Under the pieces are notes generated by a model. The model was not told where the DNA came from. It saw only the letters and a program-made list of their open reading frames with translations, and did not search any database. From a virus: a stretch of DNA of 31,166 bases. Each line of letters opens with the position of its first letter. Position 1 is the stretch's first letter. Where the stretch lies: positions 1 through 31,166 of the IMG/VR virus record IMGVR_UViG_3300010157_000176; one strand, given 5' to 3'. This document shows, piece by piece, positions 3,054 to 26,400 of this stretch. The position numbers and the translations under genes are program-made.

Positions 3054-3571
3054 TCCGGGGAAAAGTAGGATGGGTTCTTGACCCAAGGATACTTGCTGTC
3101 CTTCTTCATAACAAAGCCCTCGAAGATTGTCTCGCCAGCCTTGTTGTTTTGAAAGTCCATCTCGTCCCAGCACGCACGAAGTTTGGAGTGGGTGAGATTG
3201 GGCATCCGCATCAAAGCGTTTGAGCGTGGGGAGAATGTGGCTACATCCAGATGCTCGAATAGCTTGCGGCGTTCCGCATAAGGCAACGACTCACAAGCAT
3301 CAATGACAATGAAGCTACCAGCACCAGACCTTGTGCGTTGTCCTAGCCACTCACCATCAATCCATCGGGAGTTGATGTTTGCGTTCTTGATGCGTTCCAG
3401 CACCGGGGCTTCAAGCGTTGAGCGTTGCCCCTTGCGGTTCCAGACTTGTCCGAAATCTTGATCTACTAGAATCCGCCAGCCGTTAAACTTCGGCTCGATG
3501 TGAAAGTCCGAGTAGCACTCGTCCCAAGCTGGGGCATCGCAAGCCATCGGTCGTGCGGGGTAGGATGTCAT
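3026..3571 (-). CDS. Minimal ATP-dependent polynucleotide (DNA) ligase, nucleotidyltransferase domain only (181 aa)
   Basis: Motif I is EPKFNGWR (26-33), with K28 as the predicted adenylated lysine and R33 following. Motif III is IDGE (71-74), motif IV is EGFVMKK (151-157) and a motif V-like WQKMR lies at 175-179. These are the landmarks of covalent nucleotidyltransferases that seal nicks using ATP. At 181 residues it has only the adenylation domain; the OB-fold domain usual in DNA ligases is missing. The common KxDG is KFNG here, and Asn at this place also occurs in some RNA ligases, so the substrate is uncertain. It probably seals phage DNA. A second possible start is M9. Confidence 0.75.
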   Translation of the reverse strand: MTSYPARPMACDAPAWDECYSDFHIEPKFNGWRILVDQDFGQVWNRKGQRSTLEAPVLERIKNANINSRWIDGEWLGQRTRSGAGSFIVIDACESLPYAERRKLFEHLDVATFSPRSNALMRMPNLTHSKLRACWDEMDFQNNKAGETIFEGFVMKKDSKYPWVKNPSYFSPEWQKMRIRS

Positions 3572-3608
3572 TGTGATTAGGATGGGGTATGGCGTGAGCT
3601 TGTCTAGC

Positions 3609-3707
3609 TTAATTTAGTGAGGCCATCACATTGATGCAGACCATCGCCAAGATGCACCCGGCGATAAAGCCGATGCAGATTCCAGTTATAAGTTGTTCGT
3701 TTTTCAT
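3609..3707 (-). CDS. Single-helix membrane peptide (32 aa)
   Basis: The ATG at 3707 is preceded by AAAGGAACC about eight bases upstream. The product is MKNEQLIT followed by a hydrophobic helix (GICIGFIAGCILAMVCINVM) and a short polar end, ending with TAA. The good ribosome site and the tight fit between two genes support it, but a 32-residue frame can arise by chance. Function unknown; no partner is evident. Confidence 0.45.
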   Translation of the reverse strand: MKNEQLITGICIGFIAGCILAMVCINVMASLN

Positions 3708-3731
3708 TTGATGGTTCCTTTCTTTGGTTGT

Positions 3732-4019
3732 TTATTTAGAATCGTATTCGTAGCCAGAATCATTCATCCAGCGGAAAAGACGAGGCTCAAGCTCACTCAA
3801 ATCATCGGACATCCATCCGTCATTTTCAAGGGTTAGCATATATCTTCCGTGTTCGTTGCCTTCGCCAAGATCAACGATGTGGATATTCCCGTTGATGTCA
3901 TTTGGGTATTCTAGCCCGCCATAAACGATTGCGTTTACTGATTCGTTTTCATAATCGTGATTGTGGGTAAAGGTATGGCGTATTTTTGAGTATGTTGTGT
4001 TTGTGTTGGTTGTTTGCAT
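3732..4019 (-). CDS. Hypothetical acidic protein (95 aa)
   Basis: The frame opens with GTG at 4025 or ATG at 4019; I take the ATG. The product is rich in Asn, Asp, Glu and Tyr (VYGGLEYPNDINGNIHIVDL, then RYMLTLENDGWMSDD) and looks like a small soluble alpha/beta protein. It is the first gene after the largest intergenic gap in the window, so it may be the first gene of a separately transcribed unit. No known family recognised. Confidence 0.6.
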   Translation of the reverse strand: MQTTNTNTTYSKIRHTFTHNHDYENESVNAIVYGGLEYPNDINGNIHIVDLGEGNEHGRYMLTLENDGWMSDDLSELEPRLFRWMNDSGYEYDSK

Positions 4020-4132
4020 ACCCACACTCTATTCATTATTGAACCGAAGTCAAGCCCTTGTTAAACATATTAAACAAGCTAATAATGATATAAGATGCCC
4101 TAATATGGTTTGCGTAACTGCTTGATATTGGG
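4020..4132 (-). promoter_or_regulatory. Intergenic gap with an imperfect palindrome and a weak promoter-like sequence
   Basis: This is the largest gene-free stretch in the window. At 4057-4078 there is an imperfect palindrome with outer arms CTTGTT/AACAAG (18 of 22 positions symmetrical). It has no T-run after it, so it reads more like an operator than a terminator. On the minus strand TTGACT is followed after 16 bases by TAGAGT, a weak sigma70-like pair that would place a transcript start almost at the next start codon. It may mark the start of the leftmost operon; both calls are by eye. Confidence 0.35.
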
Positions 4133-4417
4133 CTATTTAGCCTTTGTAATTAGGCGATAGTGGTCAATGGGCATCAATCTTCGACCACTTAAATCTGGCA
4201 CTCTGAATTGTTTTCTTTCTAAAATTTTATTCTCCACCATCTCTGTAAGCATCTTCGAGCGTGAACCGCTACCAATGGATTTAAGTCCCATCGCTTGCAG
4301 GGTTTCTGTAACTCTTTTCCAACCGGGAGGAACAACCTCTGCTTGCATTGAAATGTAACTTTCCAATGCGGATGCCCACTCTCCTCTGATTGGTTTATTC
4401 CATTTCCTGTCTCTCAT
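4133..4417 (-). CDS. Winged-helix-like DNA-binding protein (94 aa)
   Basis: The core from residue 29 (VPPGWKRVTETLQAMGL) through SGSRSKMLTEMV to LERKQFRV has the order helix, helix, recognition helix, wing typical of small phage winged-helix proteins. In these a 'PPGWk' turn precedes the helix-turn-helix and a 'K.FR' strand ends it. There is no enzyme motif. It is placed just before the intergenic palindrome (4057-4078), so it could bind there, which is inference. The start ATG follows the phosphoesterase stop by three bases. Confidence 0.6.
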   Translation of the reverse strand: MRDRKWNKPIRGEWASALESYISMQAEVVPPGWKRVTETLQAMGLKSIGSGSRSKMLTEMVENKILERKQFRVPDLSGRRLMPIDHYRLITKAK

Positions 4418-4420
4418 AAG

Positions 4421-5164
4421 CTAAAAGGATTTAATTGCAGTAGGCAAAGTAAACTTTCCGTTCCTCCTTTTGGCTTGGAAAACATCGTGGCTTTTCTCGG
4501 CCAAGTGAATCATTCCAAAAGCCCATCCGTTCTGCCAACGAAGGCGGCGCATTTGAGAGCGATTGTAGGTAGGCCCAAGTTCGGAAAGACAGCCAATATT
4601 CCACGCTTCTCGCAAGTCGTGTGAAACGCTTCGAAAATAATCAATAGCGTGAGTGTGGCCGAATAAAACATTTCCGTAAGCGTCCGAATGTTGCTTGGCT
4701 CCGTGCATTGCGTGGCCGTATCCGTGAACGAACGAAAGACTTCCACAAGTATAAACTCCGTGAATGGAATCGTAGGGCAACATTGTTCCCCTAGTTTCCT
4801 TCATAATGGTTTCTACATTCTCAATTCCAGAGTTGGCATAATCCCTGCAAATTCCGCTAGATGTGTTTTTGGCTAAATCCCAAAGCCGTTCATCGTGATT
4901 GCCACGAAGAAAGATTCGTTCCTCTCCAAATGCAAAGAACTCTCGAATAAATTCCTCTCCACAATCCCAATCCTCTTGCAAACTAGATGCTTGCTCCTCG
5001 TCCCCGGCTCCTTTGCGAATGGCCTTGAAATCCCACAAGTCCCCGATGCAAACAACTAGGTCTGGCTTAAAATCTTTGCAAAACGCCAATAAAGCCTTAA
5101 CGCTTTTAGGGCATTGCTCGTTTCCGTGGATGTCTCCACACGCTACAAATTTAATCGTTTTCAC
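4421..5164 (-). CDS. Calcineurin-like metallophosphoesterase (247 aa)
   Basis: All metal-binding motifs are present in order: GDIHG (10-14), GDLWD (41-45), GNHDE (88-92), the histidine in SFVHGYG (H147) and GHTH (169-172). Members use two metal ions to hydrolyse phosphoesters, and phage copies may act on nucleic-acid ends or nucleotides; the substrate cannot be read here. The start is GTG, 14 bases inside the upstream gene, shown by the motif spacing and by the lack of an earlier start. The protein is cytosolic, with no signal peptide. Confidence 0.85.
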   Translation of the reverse strand: MKTIKFVACGDIHGNEQCPKSVKALLAFCKDFKPDLVVCIGDLWDFKAIRKGAGDEEQASSLQEDWDCGEEFIREFFAFGEERIFLRGNHDERLWDLAKNTSSGICRDYANSGIENVETIMKETRGTMLPYDSIHGVYTCGSLSFVHGYGHAMHGAKQHSDAYGNVLFGHTHAIDYFRSVSHDLREAWNIGCLSELGPTYNRSQMRRLRWQNGWAFGMIHLAEKSHDVFQAKRRNGKFTLPTAIKSF

Positions 5165-5516
5165 TAGGCTTATTTCTATCGCCAGTTAATGAAGTGTAAA
5201 TAAGTTGGCAACATTCCCTAGCCTTGGGATTTGTCAGTTCGAGATCGGTCATTCCTTCGTGGGCTAAAGCACATATCACTTTCATAGATTGGCGAAGGCT
5301 CATCAAATAAGTTATCTGATCTACTGCTTCGTTAATGCTTTCCTCGACCATCCGCATTGCTGGCATCTCCCACAAGTTTGTTTTGTAGGCTTCGACCCCC
5401 GCCGTGTATTTCCGTTCCAAAGCCTCGCAAGTTGCGGCTTGAATTTGAGTTAAATGATGGAGATGTTTCTTGTTGAAAAACTTTTGTTTAGACGGCACAA
5501 CACTCGCAGATGTCAT
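5151..5516 (-). CDS. Helical phage protein, possibly MazG-like (121 aa)
   Basis: Residues 35-80 read ERKYTAGVEAYKTNLWEMPA and then MVEESINEAVDQITYLMSLR. This resembles phage proteins with a KY..G.E....L motif and a helix carrying E..E..D..YL, sometimes annotated as MazG-like nucleotide pyrophosphohydrolases. The second acidic helix of true MazG is not obvious, so the enzyme call is weak. The basic N-terminus (KQKFFNKKHLHH) is odd for that family. It starts right after the endolysin stop and overlaps the phosphoesterase start. Confidence 0.55.
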   Translation of the reverse strand: MTSASVVPSKQKFFNKKHLHHLTQIQAATCEALERKYTAGVEAYKTNLWEMPAMRMVEESINEAVDQITYLMSLRQSMKVICALAHEGMTDLELTNPKARECCQLIYTSLTGDRNKPSEND

Positions 5517-5519
5517 CCC

Positions 5520-6014
5520 TTATCTGCTAGACCAAGGCTTTTTATTTACGAGTGAAATCTTTTTTGTTTTCACCTCTTGCTTTTGTGGAGAAACCAATTC
5601 TCTCCACCCAGAAATCGTGCCGTCCTCTAAATGCGGAGTCTCCCATTCTAAATGCCGTAGGTTGTATTTCTCGGCAATCTTTTGGCAAATTGCGTAGGTG
5701 CTATCGTCATCCCAAGAAGCGATGTATTCCCCGGTAGGAGTGCGAGCCAATGGGACAAAATCAATAGCGTGGCCTCCAATGTGCAGGGATTGGGCTGGGA
5801 TGCCCCTAGCGTTTGTTACCTTTGTTCCGGGCTTGGTTCGACCTTGGGCGTAAAGTTCTTCTTGTTCTTCGGGGGTGCGGGTCGAGCAATAGATCAAGGC
5901 AGGTATTTTCTTGTCGAGCAGTTCCGAATACCATCTTGCCACCCTAGCCCCAAAACTGGCCTCTAATCGCTCTATATGCCCCCTAGAACGCTCCGCCGCT
6001 TCCTTTAGGGTCAT
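5520..6014 (-). CDS. Endolysin, peptidase M15 (L-alanyl-D-glutamate/VanY type), 164 aa
   Basis: The zinc site of M15 peptidases is visible: SLHIGGHAIDF (76-86) gives H78 and D85, and HLEWETPHLE (121-130) supplies the third ligand H128. CSTRTPEEQEELYAQGRT upstream is the usual substrate-side segment of phage L-Ala-D-Glu endopeptidases such as that of T5. It cuts peptidoglycan stem peptides. There is no signal peptide, so release depends on a holin, and the holin-like and spanin genes lie just upstream. The C-terminal 25 residues are basic and unstructured. The ATG overlaps the o-spanin stop. Confidence 0.9.
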   Translation of the reverse strand: MTLKEAAERSRGHIERLEASFGARVARWYSELLDKKIPALIYCSTRTPEEQEELYAQGRTKPGTKVTNARGIPAQSLHIGGHAIDFVPLARTPTGEYIASWDDDSTYAICQKIAEKYNLRHLEWETPHLEDGTISGWRELVSPQKQEVKTKKISLVNKKPWSSR

Positions 6015-6292
6015 TGTTCCTCAAGCCTCGCCCTGCATCGTTCTGTTTCTTCCATTGATCGAGATAACGCTTTGAGCGTTTGCCCATACAATTCTTGGTA
6101 TTGGTCTTGTGTGGCGTGGGTTCTGTCGAGCTTGTCCCACCTTTGGATGAAGTCCGAGATCGAGTCTTGGTTCGGCGTTTGGCCAATGTCATAAGGCCGA
6201 GTGGTTACGCACCCGGCGAGTAAGCTAACGGCGATGAATCCAAGCGTCCACTTCCGCATCACGGAGAGAACGCCTATAAGCGATTTGTTCAT
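6011..6292 (-). CDS. Outer-membrane spanin lipoprotein, Rz1-like (93 aa, or 82 from the second start)
   Basis: The frame carries a lipoprotein signal, MRKWTLGFIAVSLLAGC, with a textbook LLAGC lipobox. The periplasmic part (TRPYDIGQTP onward) ends in a charged helix (SMEETERCRARLEEQ). The ATG at 6292 has AGGGA upstream; the ATG at 6259 gives a more typical signal peptide. The first third overlaps the inner-spanin-like gene in another frame, as in Rz/Rz1 pairs. The product would sit in the outer membrane and fuse with its partner to breach it in the last lysis step. This strongly suggests a Gram-negative host. Confidence 0.75.
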   Translation of the reverse strand: MNKSLIGVLSVMRKWTLGFIAVSLLAGCVTTRPYDIGQTPNQDSISDFIQRWDKLDRTHATQDQYQELYGQTLKALSRSMEETERCRARLEEQ

Positions 6293-6386
6293 CGTCTCTT
6301 TCCCTTCGGGTCTTGGCTCTATTTTTAATCCACCACCCGCCAATACCAACCAATCCCGCTATGACGGCGAGGATTGAAGCAATCAT
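6225..6386 (-). CDS. Inner-membrane spanin-like protein, Rz-like (53 aa)
   Basis: The ATG at 6386 directly follows the stop of the holin-like gene. The product is a membrane helix (MIASILAVIAGLVGIGGWW) followed by a highly charged tail (KTRRERDDEQIAYRRSLRDA). The gene shares about 68 bases with the lipoprotein frame, the usual layout of an inner spanin with an overlapping outer spanin. It is shorter than lambda Rz (153 aa), so either its reach depends on the partner or it is only spanin-like. I am confident it is coding because of the packing on both sides. Confidence 0.6.
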   Translation of the reverse strand: MIASILAVIAGLVGIGGWWIKNRAKTRRERDDEQIAYRRSLRDAEVDAWIHRR

Positions 6387-6548
6387 TTAGTCGATGTGAA
6401 GTCCGAGGGTCTTTAGAACCGAAACCACTTTTTCAAGAACGCTGTCATCAGCCGGAGTCGGGGTGAGCTTCACAATAATGCGAGCAAGGACAACGACAGC
6501 ACCCACAACGGCCATAATGTTTGTGAAGTTTTCAGTAAACCAGTTCAT
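6387..6548 (-). CDS. Holin-like single-membrane-helix protein (53 aa)
   Basis: The product starts MNWFTENFTN, then has one hydrophobic segment (IMAVVGAVVVLARIIVKL, residues 11-28), and ends with a charged helix (ADDSVLEKVVSVLKTLG). Size, single helix and position at the head of the spanin-endolysin block fit a small holin or holin accessory that opens the inner membrane. The ribosome site AAGG is preceded by a TTGACA box (6562-6567). No homologue named from memory, so the role rests mainly on context. Confidence 0.6.
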   Translation of the reverse strand: MNWFTENFTNIMAVVGAVVVLARIIVKLTPTPADDSVLEKVVSVLKTLGLHID

Positions 6549-6558
6549 AACTCTACCT

Positions 6559-7206
6559 TTATGTCAAGGGTTCCCCGGTTGATGTGTTGTATAATCCACC
6601 ATAAGACCAGTATTCACTAGCCACGATTGTAGATGTAAAGTTTGTAATTAAAGGAGTTGGGCCGGGAGGGAAAATGTAGCCAGTATAATAAACCTTTTGC
6701 CCACTTGTTGTATAAACTTGGAATCCGTTTATCTTAAATTCTTGTATTGTATATGGGGCACCCTCAACCCCAAGAAGAACACCAGATTGATCGTCTTGAT
6801 CGGTTGCAAAAGTCACATCCATATAAAGATGAACAGGTGATTGGGTTGGCGATGAATTAAAATAAAAATCAGCACCTCTGAAATCTAAATTAAAGGCTAC
6901 ACTTGCCCCGGTATCGGTTAGGCTTGTTGAATAACCATCGTTGCAAACAAGATTTGCTTCTTCATCAGCCAGAGATGTGGTTGTTCCACTCCAAGTAACA
7001 CTTACCGGGTTTGCTGGGTCATTAAAGGTATATGCAGTAAATGAACCAGATACAGAAAACTTCTTTACTCTCCAATAGAGTTTCATCATTTCCTCTATTG
7101 TTCCTCGAACATTTAATCCAGTAGTAATTCCACAAGGAACATATCCACCAGCCTCGGAGTCGTAATGACTGAATGGGAATGGTTGGGCAGTTAAGATTTT
7201 ACCCAT
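6559..7206 (-). CDS. Putative tail-tip or virion protein (215 aa)
   Basis: The protein is rich in Thr, Ser, Tyr, Gly and aromatic residues, with many beta-strand stretches (FSVSGSFTAYTFNDPAN, then SVAFNLDFRGADFYFN), and no membrane segment or catalytic motif. It follows the fibre-like 565-residue gene and precedes lysis genes, the place where siphoviruses keep tip or fibre-associated proteins. The ATG is directly preceded by AAATCCT and, further up, by an AAAGG held in a small hairpin (7215-7226). Function is inferred from position only. Confidence 0.65.
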   Translation of the reverse strand: MGKILTAQPFPFSHYDSEAGGYVPCGITTGLNVRGTIEEMMKLYWRVKKFSVSGSFTAYTFNDPANPVSVTWSGTTTSLADEEANLVCNDGYSTSLTDTGASVAFNLDFRGADFYFNSSPTQSPVHLYMDVTFATDQDDQSGVLLGVEGAPYTIQEFKINGFQVYTTSGQKVYYTGYIFPPGPTPLITNFTSTIVASEYWSYGGLYNTSTGEPLT

Positions 7207-7214
7207 AGGATTTC

Positions 7215-7226
7215 AGCCTTTCGGCT
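7215..7226 (-). other. Small GAAA-tetraloop hairpin covering a ribosome site
   Basis: The minus-strand transcript reads AGCCGAAAGGCT, a perfect four-base-pair stem with a GAAA loop. The AAAGG inside it is the only Shine-Dalgarno-like element before the ATG at 7206, ten bases downstream. Folding could dampen translation of the 215-residue protein. The stem is short, so the effect may be small. Confidence 0.35.
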
Positions 7227-7232
7227 CTTGGC

Positions 7233-8930
7233 TTAATAGCCAATGACGGAGATTCGATAGGTGGCTGTGTTCACCGCAACTGAAGCATTGTCGGCATTTA
7301 CGCAAGACAAACAAACAACATTAGAAGCATAGACAACTCCTTGGATAATTGCACCAGAAGAAATAGCCGACGGCAACCCAACAAGAACAATATCATTTAC
7401 TGCCGCACCAGTAACAACCACATCTCGATAATGCTGATCGTTTGCATTGATCGTTCCAAATGAAACAGATGTTAGCGTGGTAATGGTTCTTGGAGATTGT
7501 GGAAACACTCCGTAGGTTGTCCCATTTGCTATCAATCCCACATTGATTAGGCCAGAAACAACATTGATATTTGCGGGTTGTGTGATTGGGGTAGAGCCAA
7601 AGAAGGCAAGTTTTGATGCCGTGCTAACGCCAATCTTTGTTCCAGTTGTAGAACCGATTCCAATGTTGTAGCCATCTGCGATTGTGATGGCAGTTCCAGA
7701 AAGGTCTAGGATTGTAGAACCAGTTCCAATGCTATTGTTCTGCCAATCTAGAAAGGCCGTTCCATAGCTATTGTATAGCTTGCGGTTTGTGGCATCGACA
7801 TTTGTGGTTAAGTCCTCGACAAAGAGTGCGTTGGCTTCTGCCTTGGTGTAGTAGCTGGCTTGGTCGGCGGGAACTACTGCCCCGGTTGTAATAAGATCAC
7901 GGCGAACACTAATTGAGCCTTGGTAAATTGTCTTGGGCGTTCCGTTCTGGGTAAGCTCGATCTCGATTGTGGGCGTGATGGTGTCGGTTCCAGCTTCCGC
8001 AAAAAGCTCATCGAGTTCAGCGGTTGCCATTGTAACCGATGTTCCAAGATAGGAACCATAAACAACCCCAGAAGTGTCCAAAGTGAGTGCAGTAGTGACG
8101 GCCTGTAATCCCAATGAGCGAACAAAAGAAATTGAATAATCGCCAGAATTGTTTCCAGAGTCCACGGAAACATTGTTCGCACCGATGCCAGTAACCGATG
8201 TGAGGGCTTCGGCAAAGCTAGCGGCAGTAGAGCCGATTGGGATAGCGGTTGTTGTATTTGTTCCAAAAGCCAAAACAACCGAACCACCCTCGGCATCCGG
8301 GCCGATGGCAAGGTTATAAATTTCGTTGCGAGTTGTGGAGCCGACTTGTGTTCTGGTAAGAGCAACCACACCAGAAACCGATGATGCCGTGAAGGTATCC
8401 GAATAGACGGCTGGGTTACGGCGAAGTTTTATGACTTGTTGAGCTTGAACGCTAGATGCGGGGTAACGCCGAGTGCTGATAATAACAGAGCTAGTTGGGA
8501 AAAGAGTAAAGCTAGAACCACCAAACGACATTGCTGTGTTTGGCTGGCTTGCGGTAAGTAAATAAGCATCTGGTTCTAGTCCGTAAACTCCGCAAGTAGA
8601 AACATTGTTGGAAACCGCCGTGTAGATTCTTGATGCAACAACCGCTTCATCTGAACTCCAAGTGATAGCGTTGGAGGTTGTCGAATTGATTGTGAGCTTA
8701 AATGCACCATCGCTAGGGCCGTCATCAATGCCACCGATGCCCAGCTTTAGGGAAGCCCCGGTAGTGTCCAAATCACGAAGGAAATTGTTGGTGTCACGCT
8801 CTTGAAGACGAACCCGGAGATTATAGGTATCATTGCGGGTAAATGTAGGCAGAACGCCGTTCTTGACCGAGCCAGCCGCCACAAGCGTCCCATTGGTCAC
8901 ATCAATAAAGAAGTCGATATTTTGTGCCAT
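7233..8930 (-). CDS. Putative tail fibre / receptor-binding protein (565 aa)
   Basis: This is a long Ser/Thr/Gly/Ala-rich beta protein. The N-terminal 120 residues (MAQNIDFFIDVTNGTL, then NLRVRLQERD) look like an attachment domain. The C-terminal third has YYTKAEANALF, NRKLYNSYGTAFLDWQN and KLAFFGSTPITQPAN, short motifs that recur in phage fibre proteins. No pectate-lyase or depolymerase motif is visible. It probably sits at the tail tip and contacts the host. The ATG has GAGG and a TTGACA box (8946-8951) in its leader. A structural protein of another kind is the alternative. Confidence 0.7.
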   Translation of the reverse strand: MAQNIDFFIDVTNGTLVAAGSVKNGVLPTFTRNDTYNLRVRLQERDTNNFLRDLDTTGASLKLGIGGIDDGPSDGAFKLTINSTTSNAITWSSDEAVVASRIYTAVSNNVSTCGVYGLEPDAYLLTASQPNTAMSFGGSSFTLFPTSSVIISTRRYPASSVQAQQVIKLRRNPAVYSDTFTASSVSGVVALTRTQVGSTTRNEIYNLAIGPDAEGGSVVLAFGTNTTTAIPIGSTAASFAEALTSVTGIGANNVSVDSGNNSGDYSISFVRSLGLQAVTTALTLDTSGVVYGSYLGTSVTMATAELDELFAEAGTDTITPTIEIELTQNGTPKTIYQGSISVRRDLITTGAVVPADQASYYTKAEANALFVEDLTTNVDATNRKLYNSYGTAFLDWQNNSIGTGSTILDLSGTAITIADGYNIGIGSTTGTKIGVSTASKLAFFGSTPITQPANINVVSGLINVGLIANGTTYGVFPQSPRTITTLTSVSFGTINANDQHYRDVVVTGAAVNDIVLVGLPSAISSGAIIQGVVYASNVVCLSCVNADNASVAVNTATYRISVIGY

Positions 8931-19148: not shown

Positions 19149-19931
19149 TTATGGCAATCCGAGGCCAGTGCCGAGGGTGGTTTTGTAGATGGAGTAAATT
19201 GAAAGATATTGTGATGGAGTTATCGCAGTTGGGATAATCATTGATAATGCACCTTGCCCAGAAAAGTATTGTGCAACATCAAATGCTACATATAATTGTA
19301 GATTATTTGTTCCAGCCAACATAGCATTTCCAGAGGTTATTGTTGTGTCTTGTGATTCGTTTTTAAATGTATAAGAAGTTGATGGCCTATTATATAATGC
19401 AGAAGCCATTACAAAACTGCCAAGAGTAAATAAATTTCTACCAAATGCATTGAGAGAACCATCCCCAAAAAAAATAAAATCATCCCGCAACCGAAACCCT
19501 CTAGTGTTAGAATCGCTTAAAGTGCTTGCCAAGACTCTTGATGCACTTACTGATGTAGAATTTGAAACTGAAATGAAGGCCAATGAACCACCCGGAGGCA
19601 AGTATGTTGTTGAAATATATTGAGTTGTTCCGTTGAAAGTAATTCCATCTGTACCCCAAGTTGGACTATTGCCAAGCGTCCCATTATAAATCCCAAGTCC
19701 ACCCAAGCTGTAAGCAGTTGTTCCGCTTCCCTTGTTTTGTGATGAACGAAGAGGCCAGCAAACCATATTACTCCAAAGGCCAAGAGCTTTTACTCCAACG
19801 ACAAACGCATTGATCTGTTGCTTGGCCGTGGCGTCAGTCACGCCAGCCCTATCAAAATAGGCGGCGGCATCTCCATCGAATCCACCTATTTTTGATAGCC
19901 CACCAATTCGAATGCCACCCTTAATCATCAT
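19149..19931 (-). CDS. LamG/concanavalin-like structural protein (260 aa)
   Basis: The N-terminal segment (AAYFDRAGVTDATAKQQINA, about 25-45) and GLWSNMVCWPL (51-61) are a pattern I associate with phage structural proteins. The rest is beta-rich with LamG-like features (GITFNGTTQYISTTYLPPGG, then RGFRLRDDFIFFGDG). Such folds bind sugars or decorate the virion, so it could be a capsid spike or receptor-contacting protein. It lies between the head module and the glycosyltransferases, which invites a link to glycan binding. The start MM has AAGG in its leader. Confidence 0.65.
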   Translation of the reverse strand: MMIKGGIRIGGLSKIGGFDGDAAAYFDRAGVTDATAKQQINAFVVGVKALGLWSNMVCWPLRSSQNKGSGTTAYSLGGLGIYNGTLGNSPTWGTDGITFNGTTQYISTTYLPPGGSLAFISVSNSTSVSASRVLASTLSDSNTRGFRLRDDFIFFGDGSLNAFGRNLFTLGSFVMASALYNRPSTSYTFKNESQDTTITSGNAMLAGTNNLQLYVAFDVAQYFSGQGALSMIIPTAITPSQYLSIYSIYKTTLGTGLGLP

Positions 19932-22928: not shown

Positions 22929-23306
22929 TTAAACTAGGGTTAAGAGATACTTTAGCTGATTTACATTTCCAAGAATTTCATCTCGGATATTCAAAAGATC
23001 GGTGTCACCTTCGTTCAAATAACCGGGCAGTTCTTCTGAAAGGAACGAGATAAACTCATCGTTATATTCGCCAAAGGTTTCGGAGTAATTGTCTAGGCTG
23101 AAATCAAAGGTAGAAGCAGAGATAATTCTGCCATACTTGCCCATAAATGTTTCCACAAATTCATCAATGTTCTCTGTAAGAGACTCGTAGATTTCCCCAA
23201 AACTCTTGTGTTGGCTATAACTCCTTGTCTGCCAATGAAATATCTTATATTGATTCTGATATGTCAGAAAGGTGGTTAAAATTGTCTCGCCGTTGGCGTT
23301 TTCCAT
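22929..23306 (-). CDS. Ferritin/Dps-like phage protein, DUF5856-like (125 aa)
   Basis: FLTYQNQYKIFHWQTRSYSQ and HKSFGEIYESLTENIDEFVE, then MGKYGRI, form the HW...H...E..D pattern of Dps-like four-helix phage proteins (DUF5856). Dps binds iron and DNA; whether this one does is unknown. I chose the ATG at 23306 because it gives the usual length and follows the stop of the small upstream gene; earlier in-frame starts (23333 and 23420) overlap that gene. It lies between portal and protease, so it may be a virion or packaging partner. Confidence 0.65.
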   Translation of the reverse strand: MENANGETILTTFLTYQNQYKIFHWQTRSYSQHKSFGEIYESLTENIDEFVETFMGKYGRIISASTFDFSLDNYSETFGEYNDEFISFLSEELPGYLNEGDTDLLNIRDEILGNVNQLKYLLTLV

Positions 23307-23310
23307 AAGG

Positions 23311-23460
23311 TTATGGTTTCTTGTCAATTCCATCTGCACAAGTGCAACCCGGCTTGTCGCAAAGCTCTTTAGGGTCAATCTTTTCTTTATCAATAGGTTC
23401 AAGGTCTGATGAAGACCCAAAAACTCTTTGCTTATATGAATTATCTTTTTCTAGTGGCAT
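23311..23460 (-). CDS. Small protein with a terminal cysteine motif (49 aa)
   Basis: The ATG at 23460 is one base after the portal stop. The product is polar (MPLEKDNSYKQRVFGSSSDL) and ends in a cluster CDKPGCTCADG, three cysteines in seven residues, followed by a basic tail. The cysteines could bind a metal or form a small knot; no family recognised. Tight spacing to both neighbours argues for a real gene. Confidence 0.5.
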   Translation of the reverse strand: MPLEKDNSYKQRVFGSSSDLEPIDKEKIDPKELCDKPGCTCADGIDKKP

Positions 23461-23461
23461 A

Positions 23462-26400
23462 TCAATATTCTTCCACATCTACTTCATATATAAAGCCAAA
23501 TTTTTCGCCTCTCAAATTTTTCGCCTCTCTTTTTTTGGGTTCGCCAACCGCTCTAATCCTTGCTCCATATGGAAGCACAAATTCCTTTTCTCCGCTTGAA
23601 TCTAGGCCGTGAAATTGTCGCACTTTAGAGCTTTTAACTAGCCTTAATTTAACTTGTGCCTCCGATCCTCCACCAAAACTTCTAGCTACATCCTTGTCTT
23701 CACTAAATGATGTAAGTGTTCTATTTAGTTTTGCCCCACCAGTTAATTGACGAACATAATCATCGCCTTCTTTTTCTGTTGCAAATCCCATTCCTCGATA
23801 TAATGGCGATTTTTGTTTTATAGGCTTTTGTTGCTCCATCAAATTCCGAAGTTTTTTGCCAACATCACTTTCTGGCTTTTCATTGATTTTTATATAATGT
23901 CTTCCCCTAAAGTCATCTGTAATTTGCCAAGCGTTTTGGTCATTTCTTACTTGATCTCTCCAATCATTAAACTCTAAATTTTTCCCCTTAACCCCTATTT
24001 CACCAACTTTCCAAATTGCATTTTGATCGTTTCTTGTAATTTCCGATCTGTATTGATTCCAATCTCTTTCGTCATTTGCTCCATTAAATAGCTTAACTCC
24101 CTTTGGAGGAGTCCGAAGTTTTCCTGTGCGTTGCCCTTCGTTTTGTTTGTATTTTGGTATTTTTGTTTGAGGTAAAACTTGTTCTTTTGTTTTGGGAGCT
24201 TCTTTTGCAGAATCTTTCCTTGGTTCACCTATTGGCCTTTTTGGTTCATATCCACCCTTTAGTGCTGGCCTTCCATAGCCTTCTGCACATTTGTTATCCG
24301 GGCCAAATGTTCCGTCCTCGACTTGTCCGCAATCTCTAGCAAATTCAGTTTCTACTTTTTTTTTATCGTCTGTAATCGGGCCGCCAACAATCCAAGCGTC
24401 ACAAGTCCGTTTAGATGCACACTTGAAATCAAAAATCTCGCAGTAACCTAGATCGCCACCAATAGCAACTTCATTTGCATCTTCACCAATCCCCTTCTTA
24501 ATGCACCCAAGAAGTTTGTTGGTTTGATTAAAGGCGGCACAATTACCACAACGCATCTTCTTTGCGGTTGCTACATCACCTTGAAACTCGTCTGCCTTTG
24601 CCTTCCAATAGGCATGATTAGGCTCATTGGGATTAGCTGGCCCATAGTTGGCATCATCAACCGCATTTTGTCTGTGAGCTAAATTGGTTTTTACATCTTG
24701 AGTTGCGATTGGGCAAGAGGCTGGTTCTTCTAGCTTTTCGTCTCGGCTGTCCATCTGCTTGATGAGTTTCTTGACCCAAGAAAAGCCAGCATCTCCACCC
24801 CAGCCGTTCCACGCTTGCCATCCCTTGCCTTGATCGTCCCAACCAGCACCCTTCTTATCGACTTCGTGACGGCTAAAGAAGGAGTGCATTCTACGAATTG
24901 TGTCCGGGGATAATGCCTTGCCAGCAATCAAATCCCTAGCCCTAGCGATGCCTACGGAGGTCATTCCCCTCTGACTAGATGGTTTCTCGCTACGAACCTC
25001 CAAAGCTCGCTTGGCGGCATCCCTAGCCCCTTGGGGTGGGGTAAAGTCGATGTCTGAATACTTGCCAAGCTCACAAGCCTTTAGCATTCCAGCAATTAAC
25101 ATCTTAACGCTCTTATTATCTAGCTTGGACAATTCTTGCAGATTATTTTCAATCTGTATTCCGCCAATTTTTTGCGTATCTTCGGTTGCGCCTTTTTCGG
25201 TAGGCTCTCTTTCTTCACCAACATCAATGTCCCCATCGCTACCAGTTGTGCGGGTTTTAGTGTCTTGCTCTTTGATTGGGGGAACAACCACAACTGCGTT
25301 TTCGTCTTGCGGTTCGTCCTCCATCTTTTCTGGTGTGGGAACTGCTTGAGTAGGCGTAGGTGTTTTTGTGGATGGGGCGATTGTTCCAATGTTTATTCCT
25401 TCCACAATTTTTGATGCATCTTGTGCAGAAATGAATGGGAAAGCCGCCGTGATGATTGAAATAGAGCCTTCCTTTGAAACCGCCCCGGAAGCAACTGCAT
25501 TGATGACTTGAATAAGCGAAGCAACTTGCGCTCCATTGAGTGCTTGATCTGCGACATAAGTCTGATCTGCTTGTTTGGGTTGCTCGCCGTCTTGTGTTTG
25601 ATCTTGGTTGGGTTGAGCAATAGAACCAATAATTGTGTCGGAAATAGAGCTTGCTTGAACACCATATTGCTCTGAAAGGTCTTTAACCAACTTGGCTTCT
25701 AATGCCCTCTGCCTCATTGAGCTTTCAAAGTCCAATCCCTTTTCGGCGTAAATTGAGCTTGCGGTAGTCAGTCCGGCTCGAAACTCGGATATATTGGCTT
25801 GGCTCTCCCTTCCTAAATCTATGGAGACATTCGCACCAAAGTTAAAGACTCCCTTTGTGCTTTTGCTTCCAAGATTGTTTGCAATCAATCCCCTCGCAAC
25901 TCCGTCTGCAATAACAATGTTCTTGAGTGGTCGAAGAACCTTATCCTCAAGAAGTTTCTGGTATCTTCGAAAAGTGCGTCCTGCTTGTTGCATTTCAAGC
26001 CTAGCAGTTGGGCCGGACATTGAAGAAGGGTCAACCGCAAATGAATAAGGGATGCCAACTCCCATACAAATGTTTCGCAAAAGAATCCTGTGGAACTCCG
26101 CAAAAGCACCAGAGGGACGGCTTGGGCCATCTGGAAAAACGATGTCCTCATTGACTTCCAAATAGCTTATCTTACCCGGCTCAATGGTTTCTAGTTTGAT
26201 GCCTTGATTGTCGGCGTTTAGGTCATTCGTAAGCGTGGACAAGTCGGAGGCGTTGTTGTTGTTTCGCTTTACGATTCCAGCTTGTGAACTTGCCAGTTTT
26301 GCGGCCATCTTTTCGGAGGCAATGATTTCATACAAATCCACGCAATCATTGATGGCTGTATGAAAAGCAGAAATTCCCCGGTATTGGTCGATGCGAAGCG

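Follow-up and report, generated by a model that had tools for sequence, protein, structure and literature searches.

A predicted Dps-type mini-ferritin encoded close to a phage portal gene

Why would a phage encode a ferritin-like protein right behind its portal gene? The question is raised by a 31,166-nucleotide stretch of viral DNA (IMG/VR record IMGVR_UViG_3300010157_000176; the whole stretch is referred to below as the window), for which a preliminary description had placed a Dps-like four-helix protein and a 49-residue cysteine protein between the genes for the portal and the head protease. The layout was borne out: the two open reading frames (ORFs) occupy 22929-23460 of the minus strand in head-to-tail order, directly downstream of the portal gene, and a 402-residue gene follows them (Table 1). 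The portal stop and the ATG of the peptide are separated by 1 nt, the peptide stop and the Dps ATG by 4 nt, and the Dps stop and the next ATG by 4 nt. Of the two flanking assignments, the portal is well founded, with matches to Phage_portal_2 (Pfam, E 8.5e-51, residues 60-371) and phrog_21 (E 9.2e-58), whereas the protease identity did not find such support, as the 402-residue gene gave no significant family in Pfam, PHROGs or NCBIfam and no phage match.

Table 1. Features of the window discussed in the text, in the order in which they are read on the minus strand.
Feature	Coordinates	Strand	Remarks
Portal gene, 1202 aa	23462..27070	minus	lambda-type portal domain and long C-terminal extension
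Portal extension module phrog_2859, residues 667-810	24641..25072	minus	contains SPDTIRRM; E 1.2e-25
HiPIP-like cysteine domain of the portal, residues about 786-897	24380..24715	minus	
ADP-ribosyltransferase-like (ART-like) domain, portal C-terminus	23465..23905	minus	variable cargo slot
49-aa ORF	23311..23460	minus	CDKPGCTC motif near the C-terminus
Dps-like mini-ferritin (DUF5856 / PHROG_858), 125 aa	22929..23306	minus	Pfam, PHROG, AF2, Foldseek, PDB profile
H24 codon	23235-23237	minus	predicted ligand
H33 codon	23208-23210	minus	predicted ligand
D48 codon	23163-23165	minus	predicted ligand
E52 codon	23151-23153	minus	predicted ligand
Putative head maturation protease, 402 aa	21716..22924	minus	position beside Dps and MNHG...GVSL pattern by eye

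The best start of the Dps-like gene (MENANGE...) was chosen because relatives that have no portal cargo carry this ATG after a purine-rich stretch, which reads AGGGAGG in 4 of the 12 loci inspected and stands in a short leader between the portal stop and the Dps ATG. In the window, the end of the 49-residue ORF occupies the place of that stretch, and translation of Dps may also be coupled to the peptide stop. The Pfam, PHROG, single-protein PDB, tblastn and first IMG/VR searches were run with a 134-residue version (ATG 23333), whose nine additional residues fall outside the Pfam match. An in-frame fusion of portal and Dps, hinted at by 3-nt gaps in relatives, was rejected on the TAA that lies in between. 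The Dps-like protein is probably a late product of infection, expressed along with the head genes.

Is the 125-residue protein a member of the Dps family? It matches DUF5856 (PF19174) in Pfam with E 1.4e-17 and 65 bits against a curated cut-off of 34.6, and PHROG_858 with E 6e-17, and found no match in NCBIfam. The family goes beyond chance, with relatives encoded at 64 distinct IMG/VR loci, and among 14 control genomes the DUF5856 profile gave a weak, sub-cut-off signal in one (B. subtilis). Homologues include rI.-1 of T4-like phages, detected by tblastn, and giant-virus proteins of Fadolivirus and Pithovirus, detected by structure search. Against the PDB, a single-sequence search with the window protein reached MrgA (E 9.3e-4), and a profile of 14 divergent members (down to 21% identity) reached Dlp-1 (E 9.6e-5) and HP-NAP (E 2.4e-4); a profile of 17 closer members found Dlp-1 at E 0.026 only, with unrelated proteins ranked next.

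The AF2 model is a four-helix bundle (helices at 6-25, 30-58, 74-96 and 102-121; pLDDT 82.5, pTM 0.78) that lacks the short BC helix seen in Dps, and residues 61-80 form a low-confidence loop with a mean pLDDT of 58-67. When the model was compared with the PDB in Foldseek, the first 34 rows were all proteins of the Dps/ferritin family, nearly all of them named Dps, with probabilities of 0.80-1.00 and TM scores (query) of 0.46-0.69 at weak E-values (best 0.13). VIA-align left Dps, bacterioferritin and rubrerythrin tied at Z about 10-11, where the tool advises 13 for helical bundles. The description of the product as a Dps-like four-helix protein is thus upheld by family match, predicted fold and PDB profile match, and as a family call we assign it to the Dps-type mini-ferritins with high confidence.

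Structure prediction of the ferroxidase site had been proposed as a check; model and alignments together brought out a complete set of predicted iron ligands; a predicted fold with no metal ligands was therefore not the outcome. In the 14-member profile, H24, H33, D48 and E52 align with the H, H, D and E of Dlp-1 and HP-NAP, which we take to be the ferroxidase ligands of HP-NAP; the two histidines lie at the end of helix A and the start of helix B, and the two acidic residues in helix B. Just 8 columns of the 14-sequence alignment are invariant and four of them are these ligands; assuming columns drawn evenly, the chance that four named columns are all invariant is about 7e-6. The pattern H-x8-H-x14-D-x3-E is kept in 154 of 155 distinct relatives, the exception being cut by a contig end so that it starts after the first histidine, and in all 40 ORFs from L361-L400 of a further scan (one or more of which belong to the window's clade), counts that are partly selected for because the IMG/VR scan patterns contain ligand residues as alternatives. 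Five of the 14 aligned sequences were found by plain tblastn without motif patterns, and all four ligands are kept in them. An N-x-x-D pair in helix 4 (N102 and D105 in the numbering of L236, a distant relative) is conserved like the ferroxidase ligands in the same alignment, and N-x-x-D occurs within the last 30 residues of 213 out of 218 ORFs.

DNA binding, which the preliminary description had attributed to Dps proteins at large, does not carry over to this one. The window protein has a pI of 4.2, with 7 lysines and arginines against 21 aspartates and glutamates, and no basic tail; it is acidic like the 154 related domains, whose median pI is 4.77, with none above 7. DNA coating is therefore unlikely, and we rejected a DNA-binding role on charge. 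A basic tail is found in some Dps proteins only and does not define the family, as DNA can be protected by Dps proteins that do not bind it (title of PDB entry 1o9r).

We consider it reasonably probable that the protein is a minimal Dps-type mini-ferritin with a protective iron-oxidising mechanism. Dps proteins form dodecameric shells with ferroxidase sites between subunits, and by analogy Fe(II) would be bound at an inter-subunit site by H24 and H33 of one subunit and D48 and E52 of another. The bound Fe(II) would be oxidised by peroxide or oxygen and the ferric iron then stored. Such a protein may leave less hydroxyl radical around the phage DNA during replication and packaging, and perhaps inside the particle.

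How general is the place beside head genes? From 218 Dps ORFs we left out those with a last part shorter than 90 residues and grouped the rest into 81 clusters at 90%; the seeds were the window's clade and the distant L236, plus named phages and cysteine-domain scans, and the fractions should not be taken as population frequencies. In 16 of these clusters a gene directly next to Dps was recognised as that of a portal, a head protease or a HiPIP-like protein. Since the other 65 have no recognised head gene at either adjacent position, the head-gene setting is not general. Such a gene, a terminase or a major head protein lies within four ORFs of Dps in 28 clusters, a count that includes the protease-like gene of L051, L101 and L107. 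The 'portal' and 'protease' of L051 had no match in searches and L051 was not used as confirmed head context, and the head-protease assignment of L266-L269 comes from an iterated profile that also catches the phrog_2859 module.

The 16 clusters span a lambda-type portal (L033), an HK97-type portal (L270, phrog_12 E 5.9e-53) and the L236 group. The Dps of L236 is about 27% identical to that of the window and is preceded by an XkdF-type head-protease-like gene (phrog_3017 E 5.1e-15; its top match is to a function-unknown family); the other neighbours are a HiPIP-like gene and, adjoining it two genes after Dps, the phrog_2859 module as a separate gene, and the gaps in this neighbourhood are of 1 nt. 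Where the gap upstream to a portal or head-protease-like gene could be measured at adjacent loci beyond the window's clade, it was -1 to 6 nt in every case (12 loci). Other members have other surroundings. In the T4-like phage RB16, rI.-1 stands between rI and a lipoprotein gene; in Mel-JY01 the Dps-like gene comes after a glycosyltransferase gene; in one set of contigs from large phages it comes before a T4 gp32-type SSB-like gene, identified by eye; and RusA/HNH-like genes are found close to further members, in some cases with a terminase a few genes further on (several by eye).

We also counted from the side of the portal. The cysteine domain of the portal, or a homologue of it, occurs at 97 loci once redundant ones and truncated HiPIP matches are removed (the near-identical window and L002 both counted). 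Dps follows downstream at 49 of these and is missing at 27; the remaining 21 are short, with fewer than 1,500 bases past the portal stop and no Dps there, the putative protease being already visible in some. Eleven Dps-less loci were inspected: in eight the putative protease comes directly after the portal, and the remaining ones have a small ORF first (L180), a terminase-like gene (L169) or genes annotated as capsid maturation proteases (L116).

The 402-residue gene is conserved beside Dps in relatives. Profile alignments of it with an XkdF-type head protease and with the L051 gene were not significant. Its first ~57 residues form a module that is fused to Dps domains in other phages: Dps stands behind this module in 13 of the 81 clusters, and in L044, L045, L046 and L050, where the module is 39-47% identical, the fusion is seen by plain tblastn. 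An iterated profile of the module also catches small phrog_2423-like proteins and may have drifted, and the module of L046 had no match in phages. In L081, the N-terminus of Dps resembles by eye that of the next gene. The predicted structures of two BFVD proteins, A0A6J7WPK9 (763 residues, 'Prohead protease'; similar fold region at probability 0.94, E 0.54) and A0A8S5MNG7 (713 residues, 'NUDIX hydrolase'), partly match the Dps-like model, and in these Dps may be fused directly to a head or effector protein.

The cysteine motifs of the portal had been thought possibly related to the ferritin. They fall in a domain that is HiPIP-like by the annotation of its homologues, seven of which, from phages, are publicly named 'high potential iron-sulfur protein'; five cysteines are invariant in 10 sequences that include distant relatives (pattern CxNC...G[YF]C...C...C). 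The domain often occurs without Dps: a Dps match was present at 2 of 35 more distant cysteine-domain loci (L226-L260, locus DNA examined), and an obligate HiPIP-Dps pair was rejected on this count. A HiPIP-like ORF lies within four ORFs of Dps in 9 of the 81 clusters, a figure low by at least one, as the gene of L043 is hidden by the ORF caller. The two genes are adjacent in L043, L236, L262, L264, L265 and cargo-free relatives of the window. A profile search of the cysteine domain against the PDB gave no match and its AF2 model was not confident (pLDDT 47); we do not claim an Fe-S cluster in it. At L226, a 1333-residue protein of polyvalent type (3407-7408) follows the portal and joins a HiPIP-like domain to a polynucleotide kinase-like end (phrog_505 E 1.2e-9), and a Dps-like gene stands before the portal with one gene between.

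Behind the cysteine domain the portal ends in an ART-like domain, which matches phrog_832 RNA polymerase ADP-ribosylase (E 1.3e-4) and, below the curated cut-off, DRAT (E 7.6e-4), and shows an R...TSFS...EKE motif by eye; no ART was among its PDB sequence matches. In relatives, the slot between the cysteine domain and Dps is empty or holds other ART-like, HExxH or ParB-like domains, and HNH-like domains are found in it among relatives without Dps; most of these names are motifs read by eye or weak matches. The slot is polymorphic (window 23465-24379; L004, L007, L008, L012, L013, L016, L031, L034, L047, L120, L169, L171) and also holds unnamed domains, and some cargo types come with their own small downstream ORF. 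Cargo clustering was crude, with a 53-member cluster mixing cargo types via common modules, and only loci standing singly or in small clusters were used. Head-protein PHROGs gave weak matches to two cargo pieces, and the portal had no MuF domain (PF04233/PF06152) in Pfam and PHROGs. With exchangeable C-terminal domains on the portal, phages may have one more way to carry effector enzymes. Elsewhere in the window, between the head genes and a glycosyltransferase, the gene at 19149-19931 looks hypervariable: it is 29-85% identical in six matching relatives and many have no match, and the adjoining glycosyltransferase is >90% identical in the five of those six whose sequence covers it.

What, then, is the 49-residue protein? 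It is a real ORF and has the CDKPGCTC motif, but its terminus is CDKPGCTCADGIDKKP and not, as had been stated, CDKPGCTC itself. It belongs to no family in Pfam, PHROGs or NCBIfam. A similar small ORF stands at each of the six loci in the ART cargo cluster to which the window belongs, and four of the six carry a cysteine tail; these ORFs are 43-66 residues long (that of the window with an upstream start) and show by eye [YF]xxR and then a close FG. Two loci with another ART-like type (L007, L122) have a different small ORF in common, and the HEYGHQVEN loci L004 and L014 have one of 82 residues. At L012, a cysteine tail like that of the window stands behind a HExxH cargo, and the tail is therefore not tied to one cargo. 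A relation of the peptide to the ferritin is not supported, the small ORF varying with the effector-like extension of the portal and its cysteines being optional. All in all, a partner of the portal cargo is a better reading of the peptide than a partner of the ferritin; it is perhaps a partner or immunity-type protein of the ART-like effector, the immunity role being a guess from the layout. In module-Dps fusions (L046, L082, L086, L096, L103, L105) a conserved motif of the linker, ASCGKPNCGS, has in its CGKPNC a spacing similar to that of CDKPGC in the window's peptide.

Where would a mini-ferritin of this kind act? As a variant of the protective reading and compatible with it, the protein could be packaged, with head modules beside it or fused to it directing it into the head, and as a virion iron store or antioxidant protect the DNA or reach the host. 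The 16 clusters with a head-type or HiPIP-like gene immediately alongside, which come from separate phage types, the 13 fused to the N-terminal module of the putative protease, the fold region in the 763-residue 'Prohead protease' and the likeness at L081 all argue for packaging. It is at odds with the 65 clusters that have no such neighbour, with the placements in RB16, Mel-JY01 and the large-phage group and, in the part of PMC6669764 available to us, with another Dps-like gene near replication genes in Lactobacillus phages; we regard it as unlikely. Its boldest form is an iron-loaded head, in which a mini-ferritin packed beside a portal with an iron-sulfur-type domain would give the particle its own iron store and ferroxidase, protect the DNA from Fenton damage in light and oxygen and let the particle deliver iron or redox cargo as well as a swappable effector enzyme, and this we consider distinctly unlikely. 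The same iron chemistry could instead serve the infected cell only, the protein being an auxiliary that lowers free iron and peroxide damage during infection, with its placement among head genes accidental. A role of this kind was proposed for Dps-like enzymes of gut phages (PMC8008677) and Lactobacillus phages (PMC6669764), as far as the accessible parts of these papers go, and is consistent with the relatives beside RusA-type, HNH-type, rI or gp32-like genes (several by eye); random insertion would not favour the neighbourhood being repeated with 1-nt gaps around the about 27% identical Dps of L236. To us the infected-cell role is a serious possibility that falls somewhat short of an even chance.

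Two further readings drop the iron chemistry or widen it. A helper or scaffold of head assembly that has retained the ferritin fold and lost the use of iron would suit a gene that adjoins head genes and whose presence is optional, as the eight Dps-less loci with the putative protease directly after the portal indicate; the family has few invariant residues and the ferroxidase ligands belong to them, and we think this reading improbable. A single metal-handling system that would unite the ferritin with the cysteine peptide and the cysteines of the portal draws on the CGKPNC motif just before some fused Dps domains and on the adjacent HiPIP-like and Dps-like genes described above. Set against it, the small-ORF cysteines are absent at two of six ART-cargo loci, the HiPIP-like domain often lacks a Dps companion, by both counts given above, and the fold of the cysteine domain is unconfirmed; a single system seems to us highly improbable. 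The preferred reading remains the protective mini-ferritin.

Parts of this picture are already in print, judging from the accessible parts of the sources: Dps-like enzymes of gut and Lactobacillus phages as protectants during infection (PMC8008677, PMC6669764), effector domains fused to head proteins, including ARTs on MuF or portal proteins (PMC9503650, PMC5576092), and a mention of 'viral ferritin' for giant viruses (PMC7136201). Our literature search found nothing on DUF5856, and searches on phage Dps beside portal genes, HiPIP-type virion or portal proteins and phage ferritins returned, in the text available to us, no report of a ferritin in a phage head. DUF5856 is of unknown function in Pfam and a transcriptional regulator in PHROGs, and in view of the ligand evidence it is better seen as a phage mini-ferritin, a reading that can be tested, for example, on rI.-1 of T4-like phages such as RB16. 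The Ferrojan Horse idea of iron in phage particles has reportedly been about tails so far; the repeated occurrence of the Dps-like gene next to portal and head-protease genes allows the idea to be tested for the head.

The encapsulin shell is akin to that of HK97. Among encapsulin cargo, Myxococcus EncB/EncC (PMC9321382, accessible part) are likewise ferritin-like; packaging of the present protein is putative. MuF polymorphic toxins (PMC5576092, in the part available) offer the parallel of a head protein with exchangeable C-terminal effectors, ARTs included; the carrier here differs in being a portal with a HiPIP-like domain and no MuF match. The Dps-like enzymes of gut phages of the 'Gratiaviridae' and 'Flandersviridae' are also phage-borne members of the Dps family thought to handle iron and oxygen stress, and differ in being proposed, in the accessible part of PMC8008677, as enzymes of the infected cell, with neither a place among head genes nor a head-module fusion described there. 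T4-like rI.-1 is homologous (RB16, 31% over 75% of the query) and has the same four ligands, and unlike the window's gene it lies beside rI and not among head genes; the label 'starvation-inducible transcriptional regulator' for its family is the PHROG name of PHROG_858. With the Dps family proper (Dlp-1, HP-NAP, MrgA, E. coli Dps) the window protein shares the four-helix bundle and the H/H/D/E ligands aligned to Dlp-1 and HP-NAP; it is shorter and acidic, has no basic tail and shows no BC helix in its model, and its two histidines are spaced H-x8-H where HP-NAP, as aligned, has H-x11-H, a stretch shorter by 3 residues.
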